Translations under genes and position numbers: made by a program
The notes under the pieces: model-generated
What the model saw: the letters and a program-made list of their open reading frames with translations, nothing else
What the model was told of the DNA's origin: nothing
The model's database searches: none
IMG/VR virus record: IMGVR_UViG_3300036398_000528
Coordinates: 1-33,316 of that record
Origin: a virus
DNA: 33,316 nt
Strand: one strand, 5' to 3'
In this document: piece after piece, positions 3,612 through 10,528 of the stretch
Position numbering within the stretch: the stretch's first letter is position 1
Layout: each line of letters opens with the position of its first letter

Positions 3612-3854
3612 TTATTCGGCATCGACAAAATCAGGGTATAGCAATCCCTGCGTAACGATTGCAGCAGCACAATGCTCTGCGCTTGAAAACTGATCCATGT
3701 AAGCAAAGCCCATTGCGTCAATACAGGCATCAAATAGGCGATTACTGTTGCGAATGTATTCGTGCGGATCGTCGCACGTTTCGATTGTGCCAGCGCGAAG
3801 CTGCTTTGATAGCAGTCCGTCGATGCGTTCGAATTGGTGGAGAGTGATGCTCAT
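3612..3854 (-). CDS. Hypothetical protein
   Basis: An 80-residue, mildly acidic, apparently soluble protein with no recognised motif. It contains a HEYIRNSNRLFDACIDAMG helix region and an Ala-rich C-terminal helix. Its ATG overlaps the stop of the upstream gene as ATGA, which supports expression as second gene of the transcript from the promoter near 4145-4173. Confidence 0.6.
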   Translation of the reverse strand: MSITLHQFERIDGLLSKQLRAGTIETCDDPHEYIRNSNRLFDACIDAMGFAYMDQFSSAEHCAAAIVTQGLLYPDFVDAE

Positions 3855-4099
3855 GCTAATCCAATCGCCTTGTCAGTAATAGTTAAATCGGTGTTGTCAT
3901 TGAAGAAGCGGCGGTAGTCTGCAAAAGTGCGGAATGTGTAGCAAGTTGCTGCGTTGCCCTTGATTGCTACTGCTGCAATCTTAACATTATGGCGGGCGGT
4001 GCGGGCGGAGATTAGCAATTCTTTTAAAGTGCTCATGCCATCGAAGTTGCCGATGTGCTGTGGCGCTTGACCTTCGCCGCGAATGTCCCAAATCATCAT
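3851..4099 (-). CDS. Hypothetical early protein, first gene after a cassette promoter
   Basis: An 82-residue protein without recognised motif, opening MMIWDIRGEG. It is the first gene of a transcript starting about 45 nt upstream of its ATG, behind one copy of the repeated promoter/leader-hairpin cassette. Early promoters of this kind often drive small host-takeover proteins (inference). ATG at 4099 or 4096; the site GGGAG upstream fits either. Confidence 0.65.
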   Translation of the reverse strand: MMIWDIRGEGQAPQHIGNFDGMSTLKELLISARTARHNVKIAAVAIKGNAATCYTFRTFADYRRFFNDNTDLTITDKAIGLA

Positions 4100-4195
4100 T
4101 GTCAGTCTCCCTGTTGGCGGGGAATATCCCCTTGCTGATGCACCCTCATAATCTTGGCGATTTTATATGTAAAGCACTTTTTTCATATTATCTAA
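4100..4195 (-). promoter_or_regulatory. Early promoter cassette P1 with leader hairpin
   Basis: Reading leftwards: an identical 18-nt block shared with two other promoters ends in the -35 box TTTACA (4168-4173), then a 17-nt spacer, then the -10 box TATGAG (4145-4150). The leader carries GCATCAGCAA, then the hairpin GGGG-ATATT-CCCC (4119-4131), then a GGGAG ribosome site. The cassette matches those at 4495-4610 and 10257-10360. Confidence 0.8.
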
Positions 4196-4209
4196 AAAAA
4201 TGCAAAACC

Positions 4210-4494
4210 TCACTCATCATCAGGCCACTCCATTTGTGGCTGAACCATACCGCACTTTTTGGGTGCAATGCCATCATCAAAGATGCGCCAGATAGATGCG
4301 CCACGCGCATTCATTACATCAACCCAATTATGGGCAAGGTTCATGGCGTGAGCCACATTTTCTGCATGAAGCAGGAACCATTCGCCACGATCATTCTCGA
4401 TAGCAACTGTGAAGTTGATGCCTTCAGCAAGCAAAGCCTTGCAAGCTGCTGGAGTGGCTGCTTCAAAAGCAGAAGAAAGAGAAGAAGAAAACAT
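4210..4494 (-). CDS. Hypothetical early protein, monocistronic
   Basis: A 94-residue protein with no confident family. Residues 1-25 are Ser/Ala-rich (MFSSSLSSAFEAATPAACKA), followed by INFTVAIENDRGEWFLLHAENVAHAM, a plausible small alpha/beta fold, and an acidic end. The ATG at 4494 follows a near-perfect AAGGAGGT site; an upstream extension to 4593 would run through the promoter. It appears to be the only gene between two cassette promoters. Confidence 0.72.
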   Translation of the reverse strand: MFSSSLSSAFEAATPAACKALLAEGINFTVAIENDRGEWFLLHAENVAHAMNLAHNWVDVMNARGASIWRIFDDGIAPKKCGMVQPQMEWPDDE

Positions 4495-4610
4495 AGCGAC
4501 CTCCTTATGGATGGGCGGAATTGCCCTTGCGCTGTTTTTCGTTGATGCCCTCTTATATGAATGCCAATTTATTGTGTAAAGCACTTTTTTCAATTATTGT
4601 GCGATATGCA
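4495..4610 (-). promoter_or_regulatory. Early promoter cassette P2 with leader hairpin
   Basis: Reading leftwards: the T-tract of the upstream terminator and TGCAT, the shared 18-nt block with -35 TTTACA (4575-4580), a 17-nt spacer, -10 TATAAG (4552-4557), AGGGCATCA, then the hairpin GGGC-AATTCC-GCCC (4513-4526) and AAGGAGGT before the ATG at 4494. The match to a sigma-70 promoter is strong. Confidence 0.85.
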
Positions 4611-4644
4611 AAAAAAAGCTGGGAGCGTTGCAGCGCAGCCCAGC
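4610..4644 (-). terminator. Rho-independent terminator with eight-T tract
   Basis: A hairpin at 4618-4644 has outer stem GCTGGG/CCCAGC and an inner GC-rich stem. On the minus strand it is followed at once by eight Ts (4617-4610). It ends the replication operon (O-like, P-like and the 55-residue gene), and promoter cassette P2 begins directly downstream. Confidence 0.87.
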
Positions 4645-4764: not shown

Positions 4765-4932
4765 TTAATTTTTCTGCTGTTTTGCGTGCGCGATAGCTTC
4801 AAGCGCCCAGGCTTCAGGAGCGCCTACATAGCGCCCTTTGGCCCAGTGCTTGCGTATGTCATCCATCGTAAGCTTTCCAGCTTGGTATCGGATCAGATCG
4901 CACATTAGGTCTGTGGCTGCGCTCTTAATCAC
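4765..4932 (-). CDS. Small hypothetical protein downstream of the replication genes
   Basis: A 55-residue reading frame, opening MIKSAATDLMCDLIRYQAG and ending AKQQKN. It starts with GTG overlapping the P-like stop codon (GTGA), an overlap type used repeatedly in this operon, and ends before the terminator. The sequence is largely helical with an HWAKGRYVGAPEAWALEAI segment. Not recognised. An internal ATG nine codons later is an alternative start. Confidence 0.6.
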   Translation of the reverse strand: MIKSAATDLMCDLIRYQAGKLTMDDIRKHWAKGRYVGAPEAWALEAIAHAKQQKN

Positions 4933-5510: not shown

Positions 5511-6150
5511 TTTTCTTTCCATCTACCCATGTTGCTTTGAATCCCTGCCACCCTCGTTCAATGGCTTCAGTGATTGCGGCCTCTAATGTCCATCCTGCCA
5601 ACGCAGCTTCACGCTCAATGCCTTTCAATGCCGTTTCAGTGAAAGCTGCCTTCCTATGATTCTTCCAATCCTTCCAAAGTTGGTCACAAAATCCATCAGG
5701 CTTAGAAGCTGAAACGCTCCTGCGTTTTGTTGTTAATACGTTAGTATTAACTTCTGTATCTGTATCTGTATCTGTCTCTTGGCCCGTTACTGAAACGTTT
5801 CGTTCCCGTTTCATAGCGTTATGCTGCTGCTTTTCCCTGTATTTTTTTACACGGCTTGTGCTGTTATCGCTTTTGTATTGCAGTTCATCCCAAGCAACTG
5901 GTGACAGGTTTTCATCAACCAGATTGACCTCCTGCAAGCGCCTTCCAATCTCATCTAATTCACGCAACTGCACGCCCAACTTGACAGCAATTTTTCGCAA
6001 TCTCAGATTGTCATTTGGCGTATCCAGAAGGCCATCAGCCTTTAGGCAGCATAAGGCAACAAAGTGCCAGCGATCTTCAAAAGCCAACAAGCGCAGCTTT
6101 TCGTCATCAACTATTCGGTGATATAGTCGGAACCACTGCAGGCCACTCAC
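5410..6150 (-). CDS. O-like phage replication initiator
   Basis: A 246-residue protein. Residues 1-100 form a winged-helix-like domain opening MSGLQWFRLYHRIVDDEKL and containing RWHFVALCCLKADGLLD, as in phage replisome organiser/DnaT-type proteins. A low-complexity hydrophilic linker with a TDTDTDTE run follows at about 125-135. The C-terminal part has AIERGWQGFKATW, a helicase-loader/DnaT-like interaction segment. It starts with GTG overlapping the upstream stop (GTGA). Candidate origin repeats lie in the DNA encoding the linker, as in lambda O, whose gene also contains the origin. Confidence 0.75.
   Translation of the reverse strand: MSGLQWFRLYHRIVDDEKLRLLAFEDRWHFVALCCLKADGLLDTPNDNLRLRKIAVKLGVQLRELDEIGRRLQEVNLVDENLSPVAWDELQYKSDNSTSRVKKYREKQQHNAMKRERNVSVTGQETDTDTDTEVNTNVLTTKRRSVSASKPDGFCDQLWKDWKNHRKAAFTETALKGIEREAALAGWTLEAAITEAIERGWQGFKATWVDGKKNGATNRTTNQRGNENGFAAALRYVADGHPDEPF
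5705..5815. other. Candidate replication origin inside the O-like gene
   Basis: Perfect inverted repeat GTTAATAC-gtta-GTATTAAC at 5732-5751; three CTGTAT hexamers plus CTGTCT in tandem at 5754-5777; palindrome GAAACGTTTC at 5792-5801; and TGAAACG twice (5710-5716 and 5791-5797), the second copy inverted again as CGTTTCA at 5807-5813. Clustered dyads and repeats inside an initiator gene are the layout of lambdoid origins. Function is inferred. Confidence 0.45.
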
Positions 6151-6380
6151 GACATAAAGCCTTCAACTGGAACGGCAGGAAGACGCTTAAAATCTCCGCA
6201 CCAATCTTCAGGATCGACCTTAGGCCAAACGGCACGCCCTGTTTCAAAATCTCTATATGGAGAACGTTTTCTACACACCCAGTCGTAAAAACGACAGTTT
6301 ACGCAAATCCTTTCGATCTGCGTATCAATAGAAACACCTTGTTTTATAGGCGTGGAAATAGTAAGTGTTTTACGTTTCAT
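6147..6380 (-). CDS. Cysteine-containing small hypothetical protein
   Basis: A 77-residue protein opening MKRKTLTISTPIKQG, with cysteines in CVNCRFYDWVC and a later DWCGDFKRLP, a plausible single metal-binding site. Small phage proteins with this FYD...W..CGDF pattern are common in early regions but uncharacterised. It is the first gene after its own promoter and long leader hairpin. ATG at 6380 behind GAAGGAGG, a strong ribosome site. Confidence 0.68.
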   Translation of the reverse strand: MKRKTLTISTPIKQGVSIDTQIERICVNCRFYDWVCRKRSPYRDFETGRAVWPKVDPEDWCGDFKRLPAVPVEGFMS

Positions 6381-6470
6381 GCGAACCTCCTTCGCGTGTG
6401 GGGCTGGATCGAGCGTTCTTCACTTCGCTCTCCAGCCCCTTCTTATAACTCAAAACAAGCATTTGTAAAA
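6381..6470 (-). promoter_or_regulatory. Promoter P4 with a long leader hairpin
   Basis: Reading leftwards: -35 TTTTAC/TTTACA (6464-6470), 16-17 nt, -10 TATAAG (6442-6447). The leader folds into a long stem: GGGGCTGG (6400-6407) with CCAGCCCC (6432-6439), and inner GAGCG (6411-6415) with CGCTC (6426-6430). The -35 region carries TAAAAGCGTTTTT in reverse orientation, also present at 7145-7160. It drives the replication genes. Confidence 0.72.
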
Positions 6471-6487
6471 GCGTTTTTGTGGCAGCG

Positions 6488-6574
6488 TTGACCGATGCCC
6501 TGTTTTAGCGTATCTGGCGCGGATTGGTTCCTCCTTACCAAACACACTGGGTGGCTTCGGTCACCCATTTTTTT
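6488..6574 (+). ncRNA. Candidate small RNA with an anti-Shine-Dalgarno loop
   Basis: On the plus strand, opposite to the surrounding genes: -35 TTGACC (6488-6493), 17-nt spacer, -10 TATCTG (6511-6516), then hairpin TTGGT-TCCTCCTT-ACCAA (6524-6541) whose loop contains CCUCCUU, the anti-Shine-Dalgarno sequence. An intrinsic terminator follows: stem GGGTGGC/GTCACCC closed by a TTCG loop (6549-6566), then seven Ts (6568-6574). The predicted transcript is about 50 nt. The minus strand has AAGGAGG here but no start codon at the right distance. Expression is unproven. Confidence 0.45.
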
Positions 6575-6917
6575 ATTTGGTTTCCCGCAATGTGTGATCG
6601 GGGAACAGCGCGATAAAGACAGCGCGGCGTAAAGGCCAATCCCTGACAATTACGCCCTTCACATCTTCTGTGATTTTGATACCGCATTCGGTATATTCAA
6701 AATCCGATTTATAGCCAACGCGCCTACCATTAGCGTGCTTTAGCTGGCGACCATTGATAACGAACCAGTATTGCGGATGCACTTTCAATTCGCTGATCGC
6801 ACCAGCCGCTTGCAATGCGTGCAGTTCGTTGCACCTGATAGCCTCCCGCTTGCTGTCATGTGTATGCCCAGCGTTGCAGTTTGCTTTAACGGCTCGGTAT
6901 TTGCCGAAGCGCCTCAC
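6573..6917 (-). CDS. DUF1064 family (nuclease-like) protein
   Basis: A 114-residue protein matching DUF1064, a phage family with a PD-(D/E)XK-like fold sometimes described as Holliday-junction-resolvase-like. It begins RRFGKYRAVKANC, has a DSKREAIRCNELHALQAAG helix, the hydrophobic LKVHPQYWFVI strand, and the conserved core SDFEY...TEDVKG with acidic and lysine residues in the expected E-x-K arrangement. It starts with GTG overlapping the upstream HTH stop (GTGA). Nuclease activity is inferred from the fold only. Confidence 0.8.
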   Translation of the reverse strand: MRRFGKYRAVKANCNAGHTHDSKREAIRCNELHALQAAGAISELKVHPQYWFVINGRQLKHANGRRVGYKSDFEYTECGIKITEDVKGVIVRDWPLRRAVFIALFPDHTLRETK

Positions 6918-7120
6918 CAGTCAACCTTTTGAGATACTAGGCGATCCAGTGCGTCATTGGCTGCAAGCCATGCGCCTAGCTGCGGTTCAGTGCGTCCGCT
7001 TTTCCAGTTCGATAGCGTGACACGGGTGATGCCAGCCTCAATCGCTATCTTGCAAGCCCTGATTTTATGCGTCTTTGCGTAGCTGAAAAAGTTCGCAATT
7101 TCATTCTCTACCTGGGTCAT
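6914..7120 (-). CDS. Cro-like helix-turn-helix regulator
   Basis: A 68-residue protein: ACKIAIEAGITRVTLSNWKSG is a Cro/C1-type helix-turn-helix, followed by a short helical dimerisation tail. It sits beside the divergent promoter region, the classic place of a phage repressor or Cro protein, and is the best candidate to bind the motif repeated at the -35 boxes of the early promoters (inference). The ATG at 7120 is preferred to the TTG at 7126. Leader length is short. Confidence 0.8.
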   Translation of the reverse strand: MTQVENEIANFFSYAKTHKIRACKIAIEAGITRVTLSNWKSGRTEPQLGAWLAANDALDRLVSQKVDW

Positions 7121-7211
7121 ATTCAACTTTCTTTTGGTTGTTTGTAAAAAACGCTTTTAATCTTCTGCAAATTAGTTACAAGGGCTTTGGCAAATAAAAG
7201 GAGATACCACA
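7121..7211. promoter_or_regulatory. Divergent promoter/operator region
   Basis: Rightward: -35 TTTTAA (7155-7160), 16 nt, -10 TACAAG (7177-7182), then AAAAGGAG before the ERF ATG at 7212. Leftward: TTGTAA-16-TAAAAG or TTTACA-17-TGAATA can be read. The segment with TAAAAGCGTTTTT on the minus strand overlaps both -35 areas and resembles the element at promoters P1-P4, so it is a likely operator. Confidence 0.6.
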
Positions 7212-7772
7212 ATGCCAGTGCATAAAAAACTTAACGAAGCGCGGATTGCCTTCCACGCATTACCGCTCAAAAAGTCAGGCCACAACACGTTTGCTGGTTA
7301 CAAATACTTCGAGCTTTCCGACTTTGTGATTCCAGCCCTTCGCATATTTAACGATGTCGGATTGTGCGCGGTTATTAGCTTTTCCGAAACGACAGCATCT
7401 ATGCATATCGTCGATGTTGAAGATGGCTCGATGGTTATCATCCACAGCCCAATGGGATCAGCCAATCTTAAAGGCTGTCACGAAATTCAGAACATTGGCG
7501 CTTGCGAGACATATTCCACCCGCTATCTCTGGACAGCAGCCCTTTGCATTGTCGAGCATGATGCTTTGGATGCTACCACAGGCAAGAGTGAACCAGCACC
7601 ACGCGAAAAGTTTATTAGCGACGAACAGTTTGAGGTATTAGTGGATCTGGTTCACATTACAAAAACAGACATGGCTTTGCTCTGCAAGCATTACAAAATC
7701 AGCGCACTCAAGGAATTGCAGGAAAGCCGCTTCGATGCGGTTAAGGCTGCATTAGAAAAGAAGCTGGCATGA
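7212..7772 (+). CDS. ERF-family single-strand annealing protein
   Basis: A 186-residue ERF-superfamily recombinase, which pairs complementary single strands in phage recombination. The N-terminal KLNEARIAFHALPLKKSG is followed by FAGYKYFELSDFVIPALR, matching the family's K-x-x-F-x-Y-x-x-x-x-D opening, and IGACETYSTRYLWTAAL matches the later conserved block. The C-terminal 60 residues form a helical tail (DEQFEVLVDLV...). It is first in the rightward operon with AGGAG upstream and overlaps its exonuclease partner (ATGA). Confidence 0.85.
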   Translation: MPVHKKLNEARIAFHALPLKKSGHNTFAGYKYFELSDFVIPALRIFNDVGLCAVISFSETTASMHIVDVEDGSMVIIHSPMGSANLKGCHEIQNIGACETYSTRYLWTAALCIVEHDALDATTGKSEPAPREKFISDEQFEVLVDLVHITKTDMALLCKHYKISALKELQESRFDAVKAALEKKLA

Positions 7773-8395
7773 CAGACGCAGCTATTATCCAACGCAGCCC
7801 TGAATGGTATGCGGCACGTTGTGGGAGCCTTGGCGCTTCCCAACTGGCAGACGCCCTAGCCAAGACCAAATCTGGCTGGGGAGCGTCACGCGCCAACCTT
7901 CGCGCCAAGCTTGTAGTCGAAAGGCTCACAGGCCAGCAGGAGGAGGGATTCTCCAGTGCGGCTATGGTCTGGGGAGTAGAAAAAGAAGAAGAAGCCAGAA
8001 TCGCCTATAGCTTCATGACAGGCCATGAAGTGACTGAGGTGGGCCTATATAAGCATCCAACCATTATCGGCACTCACGCCAGCCCTGACGGGCTTGTGGG
8101 CGACGATGGATGCATTGAGATTAAGTGCCCTAATTCTGCCACGCATATTGAAACGCTGAAAAGCAATCAGGTTGCCCATAAGTATTTGCTTCAGATGCAA
8201 TGGCAGATGGCTTGCGCTGATAGGCAATGGTGCGACTTCGTGAGCTTCGATCCGCGAATGCCAGATCATCTAATGCTTTACATTCAGCGGGTGCAGCGCG
8301 ACAACGATATGTTAGCGATTTTGGAAACAGAGGTCGCTGCATTTCTTGCAGAAGTTGACGAAGACGTAAAAGCGTTGTCAAAATTAGGAGAATGA
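7769..8395 (+). CDS. YqaJ/lambda-exo-type alkaline exonuclease
   Basis: A 208-residue 5'-3' exonuclease of the YqaJ viral recombinase family. Early motif RSPEWYAARCGSLGASQLAD gives the substrate arginine region; GVEKEEEAR near 69-77 and SPDGLV (Asp107) with EIKCP (Glu117, Lys119) make up the PD-(D/E)XK active site; a KYLLQMQWQM helix follows. With the ERF protein it forms a two-component exonuclease/annealase system for end resection and strand annealing. Overlap with the ERF gene indicates coupled synthesis. Confidence 0.9.
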   Translation: MTDAAIIQRSPEWYAARCGSLGASQLADALAKTKSGWGASRANLRAKLVVERLTGQQEEGFSSAAMVWGVEKEEEARIAYSFMTGHEVTEVGLYKHPTIIGTHASPDGLVGDDGCIEIKCPNSATHIETLKSNQVAHKYLLQMQWQMACADRQWCDFVSFDPRMPDHLMLYIQRVQRDNDMLAILETEVAAFLAEVDEDVKALSKLGE

Positions 8396-9983: not shown

Positions 9984-9992
9984 GTGATAGCA

Positions 9993-10223
9993 ATGCAGAC
10001 TAAATCGCGGCCAGAATTGCCAACGCGCTCCAGGAATATTCCGCCACCATCTGAATATCTGGAACACCGCTATAGGCAAAACAACCAAGCGATTGCGGAG
10101 GGATCGGCAGCATTGTTGAAAGCGCAGTTAAAGGCTGGGCATCATACGCTGACACAGGAAAGCTTGAAGGCAGTTGTCAGAAAATACAAATGGCAGCTCT
10201 GCTTACAACCTACGTTATCCTAA
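9993..10223 (+). CDS. Hypothetical basic protein
   Basis: A 76-residue basic protein with a Pro-rich N-terminal part (TRSRNIPPPSEYLEHRYRQN) and an Ala/Lys helical middle. No family recognised. The ATG at 9993 follows AGG with 8-nt spacing; the GTG at 9984 is an alternative. It is the last gene before the terminator at 10230-10265, so it closes the recombination operon. Confidence 0.6.
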   Translation: MQTKSRPELPTRSRNIPPPSEYLEHRYRQNNQAIAEGSAALLKAQLKAGHHTLTQESLKAVVRKYKWQLCLQPTLS

Positions 10224-10229
10224 GCTAGG

Positions 10230-10265
10230 TGGCGGGTGGCAATACGCTTCCCGCCATTATTTTTG
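10230..10265 (+). terminator. Rho-independent terminator of the recombination operon
   Basis: Stem TGGCGGG (10230-10236) pairs with CCCGCCA (10250-10256) across a 13-nt loop and is followed by TTATTTTTG. It stands between the last recombination-operon gene and promoter P3. Confidence 0.85.
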
Positions 10266-10360
10266 CATAATATGAAAAAAGTGCTTTACACATAAAAAAG
10301 CTCTTTTTATAAGAGGGCATCAGCAATAGGGGCAACGCCCCGCCATTAAGGAATAGCAGT
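10257..10360 (+). promoter_or_regulatory. Promoter cassette P3 with leader hairpin
   Basis: The terminator T-tract is followed by TTTTGCAT, the 18-nt block shared with P1 and P2, -35 TTTACA (10285-10290), 17 nt, -10 TATAAG (10308-10313), AGGGCATCAGCAA, hairpin GGGGC-AAC-GCCCC (10329-10341), CGCCATTAAGGA and the ATG at 10361. It is the plus-strand copy of the cassette. Confidence 0.87.
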
Positions 10361-10528
10361 ATGAGAAAAATCCTTACAGTTGAAGAGCGCATTGAATTTT
10401 ACAAGGGCGTAACTGAACTCATTATGGAGCGCATAAAAAATGAAGGGCTGCAACCTGACGTAGATGTTGATGATGATTACGATGGTGGCCGCTATGACTT
10501 TTACACGACACGGGGATTGACGAAATGA
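10361..10528 (+). CDS. Small acidic hypothetical protein
   Basis: A 55-residue protein opening MRKILTVEERIEFYKGVTEL, with an acidic middle (DVDVDDDYDGG) and a terminal TTRGLTK. Not recognised. It is the first gene of the transcript from cassette P3, with AAGGA upstream, and its stop overlaps the next ATG. Small acidic early proteins can be inhibitors of host DNA-binding enzymes, but nothing in the sequence proves that. Confidence 0.65.
   Translation: MRKILTVEERIEFYKGVTELIMERIKNEGLQPDVDVDDDYDGGRYDFYTTRGLTK

Follow-up and report, generated by a model that had tools for sequence, protein, structure and literature searches.

A probable promoter and leader cassette repeated before unrelated genes

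Why would a phage carry the same stretch of DNA in front of genes that are unrelated to one another? The question is raised by the 33,316-base IMG/VR virus record IMGVR_UViG_3300036398_000528 (the whole stretch analysed, hereafter the window), in which the exact 18-mer TGAAAAAAGTGCTTTACA occurs at 4168-4185 and 4575-4592 on the minus strand and at 10273-10290 on the plus strand. Shuffling gives a chance expectation of 0.06 occurrences on average compared with these three, and no further site was found in the window with up to 3 mismatches. Each copy presents, in order, the 18-mer, a 17-nt spacer, a -10 box, a GCATCA leader, a hairpin, a Shine-Dalgarno sequence and an ATG. The leader after the -10 box reads GGGCATCA/GGTGCATCA, and the hairpins of the three copies are GGGGATATTCCCC, GGGCAATTCCGCCC and GGGGCAACGCCCC. 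The initial annotation had described a shared 18-mer, 17-nt spacing, TATAAG or TATGAG, GCATCA, a hairpin and a ribosome site before unrelated genes, and both the architecture and the unrelatedness of the genes hold for all three copies. A covariance model built from relatives together with the window copies recovers these three, and no other significant match, in the window (E values of 3e-19, 3e-19 and 4e-12); next comes a weak match at 7143 (E = 0.09).

In cassette A, on the minus strand, the A-tract and -35 box (4168-4185) are conserved in relatives. The -10 box TATGAG, a variant present in 11 of 97 distinct cassettes, lies 17 nt past the -35 box at 4145-4150, the leader hairpin GGGGA-TAT-TCCCC, supported by covariation in relatives, at 4119-4131, and the ribosome binding site GGGAGAC at 4105-4111. 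Behind it is m10 (3851-4099, minus strand, ATG at 4099), an 82-aa ORFan without a PHROG match, whose homologue has no Pfam match; the m10 homologue in locus L169 sits behind a cassette of a different type. Cassette B, on the same strand, comprises the A-tract and -35 box (4575-4592), the -10 box TATAAG (4552-4557), the hairpin GGGC-AATTCC-GCCC (4513-4526) and the ribosome binding site AAGGAGG (4500-4506) before m11, a 94-aa ORFan (4210-4494, minus strand, ATG at 4494). Its stem has 4 bp and its leader is approximately 10 nt longer, a feature that recurs with m11 homologues elsewhere. Cassette C, on the plus strand, has its A-tract and -35 box at 10273-10290, TATAAG at 10308-10313, the hairpin GGGGC-AAC-GCCCC, again with covariation in relatives, at 10329-10341 and AAGGA at 10348-10352; it precedes p9 (10361-10528, plus strand, ATG at 10361), a 55-aa product with an N terminus that is exchanged among relatives. 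The -10 boxes and ribosome binding sites of all copies and the hairpin of B were read from the sequence itself.

A related promoter (ACGCTTTTACA, TATAAG) is found at 6381-6490 on the minus strand, before a gene at 6147-6380. The leader hairpin there differs from that of the cassette and is very stable (-31.3 kcal/mol, z = -5.8).

The T-tract with TGCAT, previously counted as part of the cassette, belongs instead to its surroundings. In B and C it forms the end of an intrinsic terminator that belongs to the upstream gene, read from the sequence as GCTGGG...CCCAGC T8 upstream of B (4610-4644, minus strand) and GGCGGG...CCCGCC ATTATTTTTG upstream of C (10231-10265, plus strand). Upstream of A there is a weak stem only. 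The tract is missing in many relatives, in which the cassette directly follows a stop codon (at Site I, defined below, that of m12) without a terminator, and in a transferred m11 unit homology starts with the A-tract and leaves the T-tract outside.

The portal and coat of the window phage are of P22 type and the named phages with similar proteins are mostly P22-like, in agreement with the P22-like affiliation first proposed. An Erf-like single-stranded DNA-annealing protein is encoded at 7212-7772 (plus strand; PHROG 155, E = 5.5e-20), adjoined by an exonuclease at 7769-8395 (plus strand) that is 58% identical to a viral recombinase annotated as YqaJ-like. The early region also codes for a RusA-like resolvase match (PHROG 190), methylases, small ORFans and m17, a small HTH protein (6914-7126). 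The host was sought with the portal, without a positive control, in 385 genomes of the class to which a Rhodopila MAG belongs, and no match was found; the covariance model returned nothing usable from the same genomes (one weak match, L265, without an obvious cassette). One exonuclease is nearest to exonucleases of alphaproteobacterial phages, which may be a weak hint of the host.

Occurrence at two sites in relatives

Scans of IMG/VR recovered 56 stretches with the exact 18-mer and 74 with a pattern made up of the promoter plus the hairpin's 3' arm. From the collected loci come 97 distinct cassettes, and 81 of these are of the window type (type 1). As judged from comparison of these sequences, the cassette is conserved and its position syntenic: 54 type-1 copies lie at Site I, which has m12 on one side and the m9-m6 group on the other, and 27 at Site II, which is flanked by p8 (itself downstream of the SSB gene) and by p9/p11. 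The flanks immediately upstream, m12 (4765-4932, minus strand) and p8 (9984-10223, plus strand), are both conserved in relatives. Behind the cassettes are 30 clusters of unrelated, small, mostly ORFan genes, approximately 26 of them behind type 1, with 21 clusters at Site I and 7 at Site II. Gene content thus differs between cassettes at two syntenic sites, as the initial annotation led one to expect; relatives with the same genes but without the element were looked for and not found.

Some search patterns required the hairpin, so the halves of the cassette were cross-checked by independent selection. Among 45 distinct contexts selected by the 18-mer only, 36 have a -10 box at a spacing of 17, and at least 5 of the rest are unrelated chance sites. 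Selection by the leader only retrieves TTTACA or TTGACA at 17 nt in 67 of 92 cases. When loci were selected by the portal only, a complete cassette with hairpin was present within 300 nt of m12 in 20 of 26; in the other 6 another stretch comes first (a terminator and, in several, an opposite-strand gene), and in two of these (L008 and L040) the cassette follows approximately 0.5 kb further on. A promoter-like match lies within 300 nt after p8 in all 31 loci, only 3 of which were fetched without using the cassette. The contigs behind most copies are metagenome fragments, GGG..CCCGCCA was a selection criterion in some patterns, and the sequences share descent; the number of sequences is not the number of independent events. 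No cassette was found in cultured phages at the sensitivity of blastn.

One record, IMGVR_UViG_3300042314_000177 (68.9 kb, loci L018 and L031), holds two different portal copies and different cassette genes over about two genome lengths; it probably represents two related phages joined in assembly.

A second cassette type is present in L107 (9559-9651, minus strand), L163, L164, L166, L168, L001, L134 and others, in 34 IMG/VR stretches altogether, often back-to-back with the Site I cassette. Its order is CTTGACA or CTTTACA, 17 nt, TATATAAT or TATAAG, a GCATCAGC or GTCAGCAGC hairpin, a second GGGGCnnnGCCCC hairpin, GCTCTTTGACA, which looks like rrn boxA, and a ribosome site. The genes it precedes fall into at least four families, and one of these is also found behind type-1 cassettes. 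Locus L108, in which no match to the genes of the window was detected, carries six copies of a similar promoter between 2541 and 9705 (TTCTTTACA or GTGCTTTACA, 17 nt, TATAAT/TATACT) before different start codons, and looks like another repeated promoter set.

The leader hairpin

The hairpin is supported by covariation, as tested on a MAFFT alignment built without reference to a structure. Stem positions are paired in 93.2% of cells compared with 81.8% in shuffles, and the covariation score is 0.248 compared with 0.083; in neither case did any of 500 shuffles reach the observed value, and slid controls were all far lower. The closing pair of the stem varies among A-U, C-G, U-G and G-C. Thermodynamic stability alone does not set the leaders apart, the folding energies of the window copies being no better than those of shuffles (z = -0.6, -0.1 and +0.3). 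An outer GGC/GCC pairing around the hairpin was also considered; it forms in some leaders and is not general.

The stem lies downstream of the -10 box and is followed by GCCAnnAAGGAG without a T-run, and therefore is not an intrinsic terminator. Predicted folding of copy C and of the consensus type-1 leader leaves the Shine-Dalgarno sequence unpaired. Because the leader is conserved outside the stem between unrelated genes and the stem itself covaries, the leader might be an RNA regulatory element, with GCATCARC, GCCA and the hairpin bound by a phage or host protein, or a nut-type antitermination site, and in this way govern every cassette gene at the level of RNA; the two hairpins and boxA-like GCTCTTTGACA of the second cassette type point the same way. 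We regard this as unlikely: the window contains no boxA-like GCTCTTTRACA with up to 1 mismatch, a search of Rfam found no matching family, many copies precede one short gene and so leave little to antiterminate, and the conservation of GCCA is partly a search criterion. A stronger version, which seems quite unlikely, would have any gene behind the cassette join one RNA-level regulon through a phage or host RNA-binding factor, the type-1 leader being a shortened form of the type-2 leader with its two hairpins and boxA. The most likely role, and the weakest step in our own account, is that the hairpin protects the 5' end and shields the ribosome site from pairing with the variable coding sequence.

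Gene turnover behind the cassette

Alignments between relatives place the turnover of genes, and its breakpoints, directly at the cassette. Pairs of loci that are 89-99% identical over 160 nt upstream (ungapped alignment) carry unrelated genes, and in the clearest of these pairs the promoters are 82-100% identical. BLAST homology between L158 and L179 extends from -1094 to +86, and that between L087 and L121 from -187 to +87, with the start codon at +84 in both pairs. L046 and L094 are 99% identical upstream and share an identical promoter before unrelated genes; here and in L006/L008, homology ends at approximately +50, within the leader. Genes can also be absent altogether, as in L091, which lacks one gene of L097: right-hand homology resumes at +72 in the former and +255 in the latter, and the L091 cassette directly precedes the next gene. 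Furthermore, m11 of the window (Site I, cassette B) is homologous to a unit at Site II in L113 from +0 to +367, a span that starts at the first base of the A-tract and closes where the gene ends, while the immediate flanks have no homology.

At Site II, the products p9 and those of L031, L086 and L175 have a common C-terminal tail, DDYDGGR(F/Y)D(Y/F)..(S/T)RG (DDYDGGRFDYLTSRG; DDYDGGRYDF..RG in p9), and wholly different N termini. Because only the tail is shared, the right border can fall inside the coding sequence. A gene family provisionally placed at both sites ('c1') proved to be partly a chaining artefact through this tail. Pfam and PHROG searches left nearly all cassette genes without a match, the exceptions being a DnaA C-terminal domain (L031) and a weak MarR-like match (L167).

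These data bear on a further alternative, that independent genes were inserted as plain morons with host-type promoters and share sequence only through a common RNA polymerase. The promoter does resemble an ordinary sigma-70 type, and several copies have upstream terminators. Yet the leader, hairpin and spacing are shared far past a promoter consensus, an identical spacer, -10 box and 38-nt leader stand before different genes, and the element remains fixed at two sites whatever gene follows. Plain moron insertion is already disfavoured on these grounds, and we consider it very unlikely.

The upstream box and m17

A different question is whether the cassettes are held together by a common regulator. 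A box just upstream of the -35 (AAAAAGTGCTTT or AAAAACGCTTT) could be the operator of m17, making the cassettes a regulon under joint repression or activation. The m17-p1 intergenic region holds a related box (the weak covariance-model match at 7143), and the type of box, GTG or ACG, tracks similarity in m17 above that in p1, p2 and m16 (same/different gap of 0.07 compared with 0.00-0.03), with a nearest-neighbour accuracy of 0.88. In addition, two unrelated contigs, L208 (12969) and L244 (2972), have the same leader with palindromic promoter spacers (GGGCCATTGGCCC, GGGCCAATGGCCC), which are possibly repressor operators. Against this, m4 predicts the box type equally well (0.92), L113 has both GTG and ACG type-1 boxes in one locus, and the box in the immunity region reads ACG in the window and GGG or GAG in near relatives, whereas the cassettes of all these are GTG. 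There is no consistent dyad around the -10 box either; one that was attractive by eye gave no consistent diagonal in pair statistics. The box type is associated with m17, though not exclusively, and we judge an m17 regulon to be improbable.

In a distant subgroup (L081, L105 and L089), the m17-p1 region contains a TTTACA..TGTAAA palindrome in a divergent early promoter, which is likely to be an operator.

A probable joint for gene exchange

The reading that we prefer, and hold to be probable, is that the cassette is a plug-in expression unit that doubles as a recombination joint, with small genes exchanged behind it at two fixed sites. Each copy would be a self-contained unit of approximately 85-95 bp, comprising the A-tract, a sigma-70-type promoter (TTTACA-17-TATAAG), the leader hairpin and an open Shine-Dalgarno sequence, with transcription predicted to start near the conserved GCATCA. 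With promoter elements of sigma-70 type and a ribosome site supplied by the leader, the cassette should allow expression of any coding sequence fused to it at the start codon, and an incoming small gene would be expressed at once from standard signals. Promoter activity and early timing are presumed here from the character of the sequence.

Given that the cassette is conserved and the gene behind it is not, its conserved 40-90 bp may serve as the homologous joint for Erf/exonuclease-type recombination by an annealing recombinase. Genes would be exchanged, inserted or lost right behind the cassette, and the other site would receive copies of whole cassette-and-gene units; homologous recombination within the cassette would explain the exchange data. 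The Erf-like protein is the likely recombinase, and the exonuclease may take part. Diverged sequences are recombined efficiently by Rad52-like phage recombinases, ErfD3 among them (PMC3945230).

On this account, a phage lineage outside the T4 group would keep two 'expression sockets' and swap accessory genes without loss of regulation, with borders sharp enough to be visible at the start codon. As a search tag the cassette is of practical use too: it retrieved approximately 26 small-gene families, mostly unannotated, which probably include host-takeover or counter-defence functions, and the approach could be extended to other uncultured phages.

Comparison with known systems

No prior description of the cassette was found in the literature searched, which was covered in part. 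Lambdoid morons are additional small genes that lie between conserved phage genes, each with a promoter of its own and often with a terminator at its border. As in a moron, a gene with a putative promoter of its own is inserted between genes that are adjacent in relatives (L091 compared with L097), but in the present case a single cassette with a structured leader is common to all and keeps its place as the genes behind it are replaced. Unlike a nut/boxA site, the cassette has no boxA-like sequence in the window, such a sequence being present only in the type-2 cassette of relatives.

In Cluster K mycobacteriophages, the SAS/ESAS elements are conserved repeats immediately upstream of the start codons of small unrelated genes, the ESAS being 17-bp imperfect inverted repeats for which the authors saw little support as RNA hairpins (PMC3203893). 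The position before start codons of unrelated small genes is alike, whereas the stem pairs covary here, and the SAS consensus GGGATAGGAGCCC has no match in the window with up to 2 mismatches. Intergenic repeats of 58 and 29 bp in halovirus HF2 carry promoters, as seen with a reporter, at positions kept in relatives (PMC8707807). They resemble the cassette as promoter-bearing intergenic repeats, but HF2 is an archaeal virus with archaeal promoters, and the portion of that account drawn on here reports neither a leader hairpin nor gene swapping.

A close parallel is with PeSL (promoter early stem-loop), composite promoter-terminator motifs of T4-like myoviruses (Arbiol 2010; Comeau 2014), as described by their titles and by PMC4503421, which cites them. 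Like the cassette, PeSL are small repeated cis-elements, with a promoter and stem-loop, between exchangeable small genes, and they were proposed to serve modular shuffling. In our case conserved repeats likewise mark the borders of exchange, at the leader or start codon, for approximately 26 gene clusters at two sites. PeSL as there described combine a promoter with a terminator at high density in T4-like myoviruses, whereas here one to three copies occupy two fixed sites in a phage with a P22-type portal and coat. The stem-loop of PeSL is a terminator joined to the promoter, whereas the stem here lies in the 5' leader and has no T-run, and upstream terminators accompany some copies only. The initial suggestion of a PeSL-like module thus stands in part: a reusable promoter and leader unit for unrelated small genes is well supported by the relatives, and the PeSL label holds only as an analogy. 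The cassette lacks two defining features of PeSL, and by that analogy it would work like the PeSL of T4 without being one.
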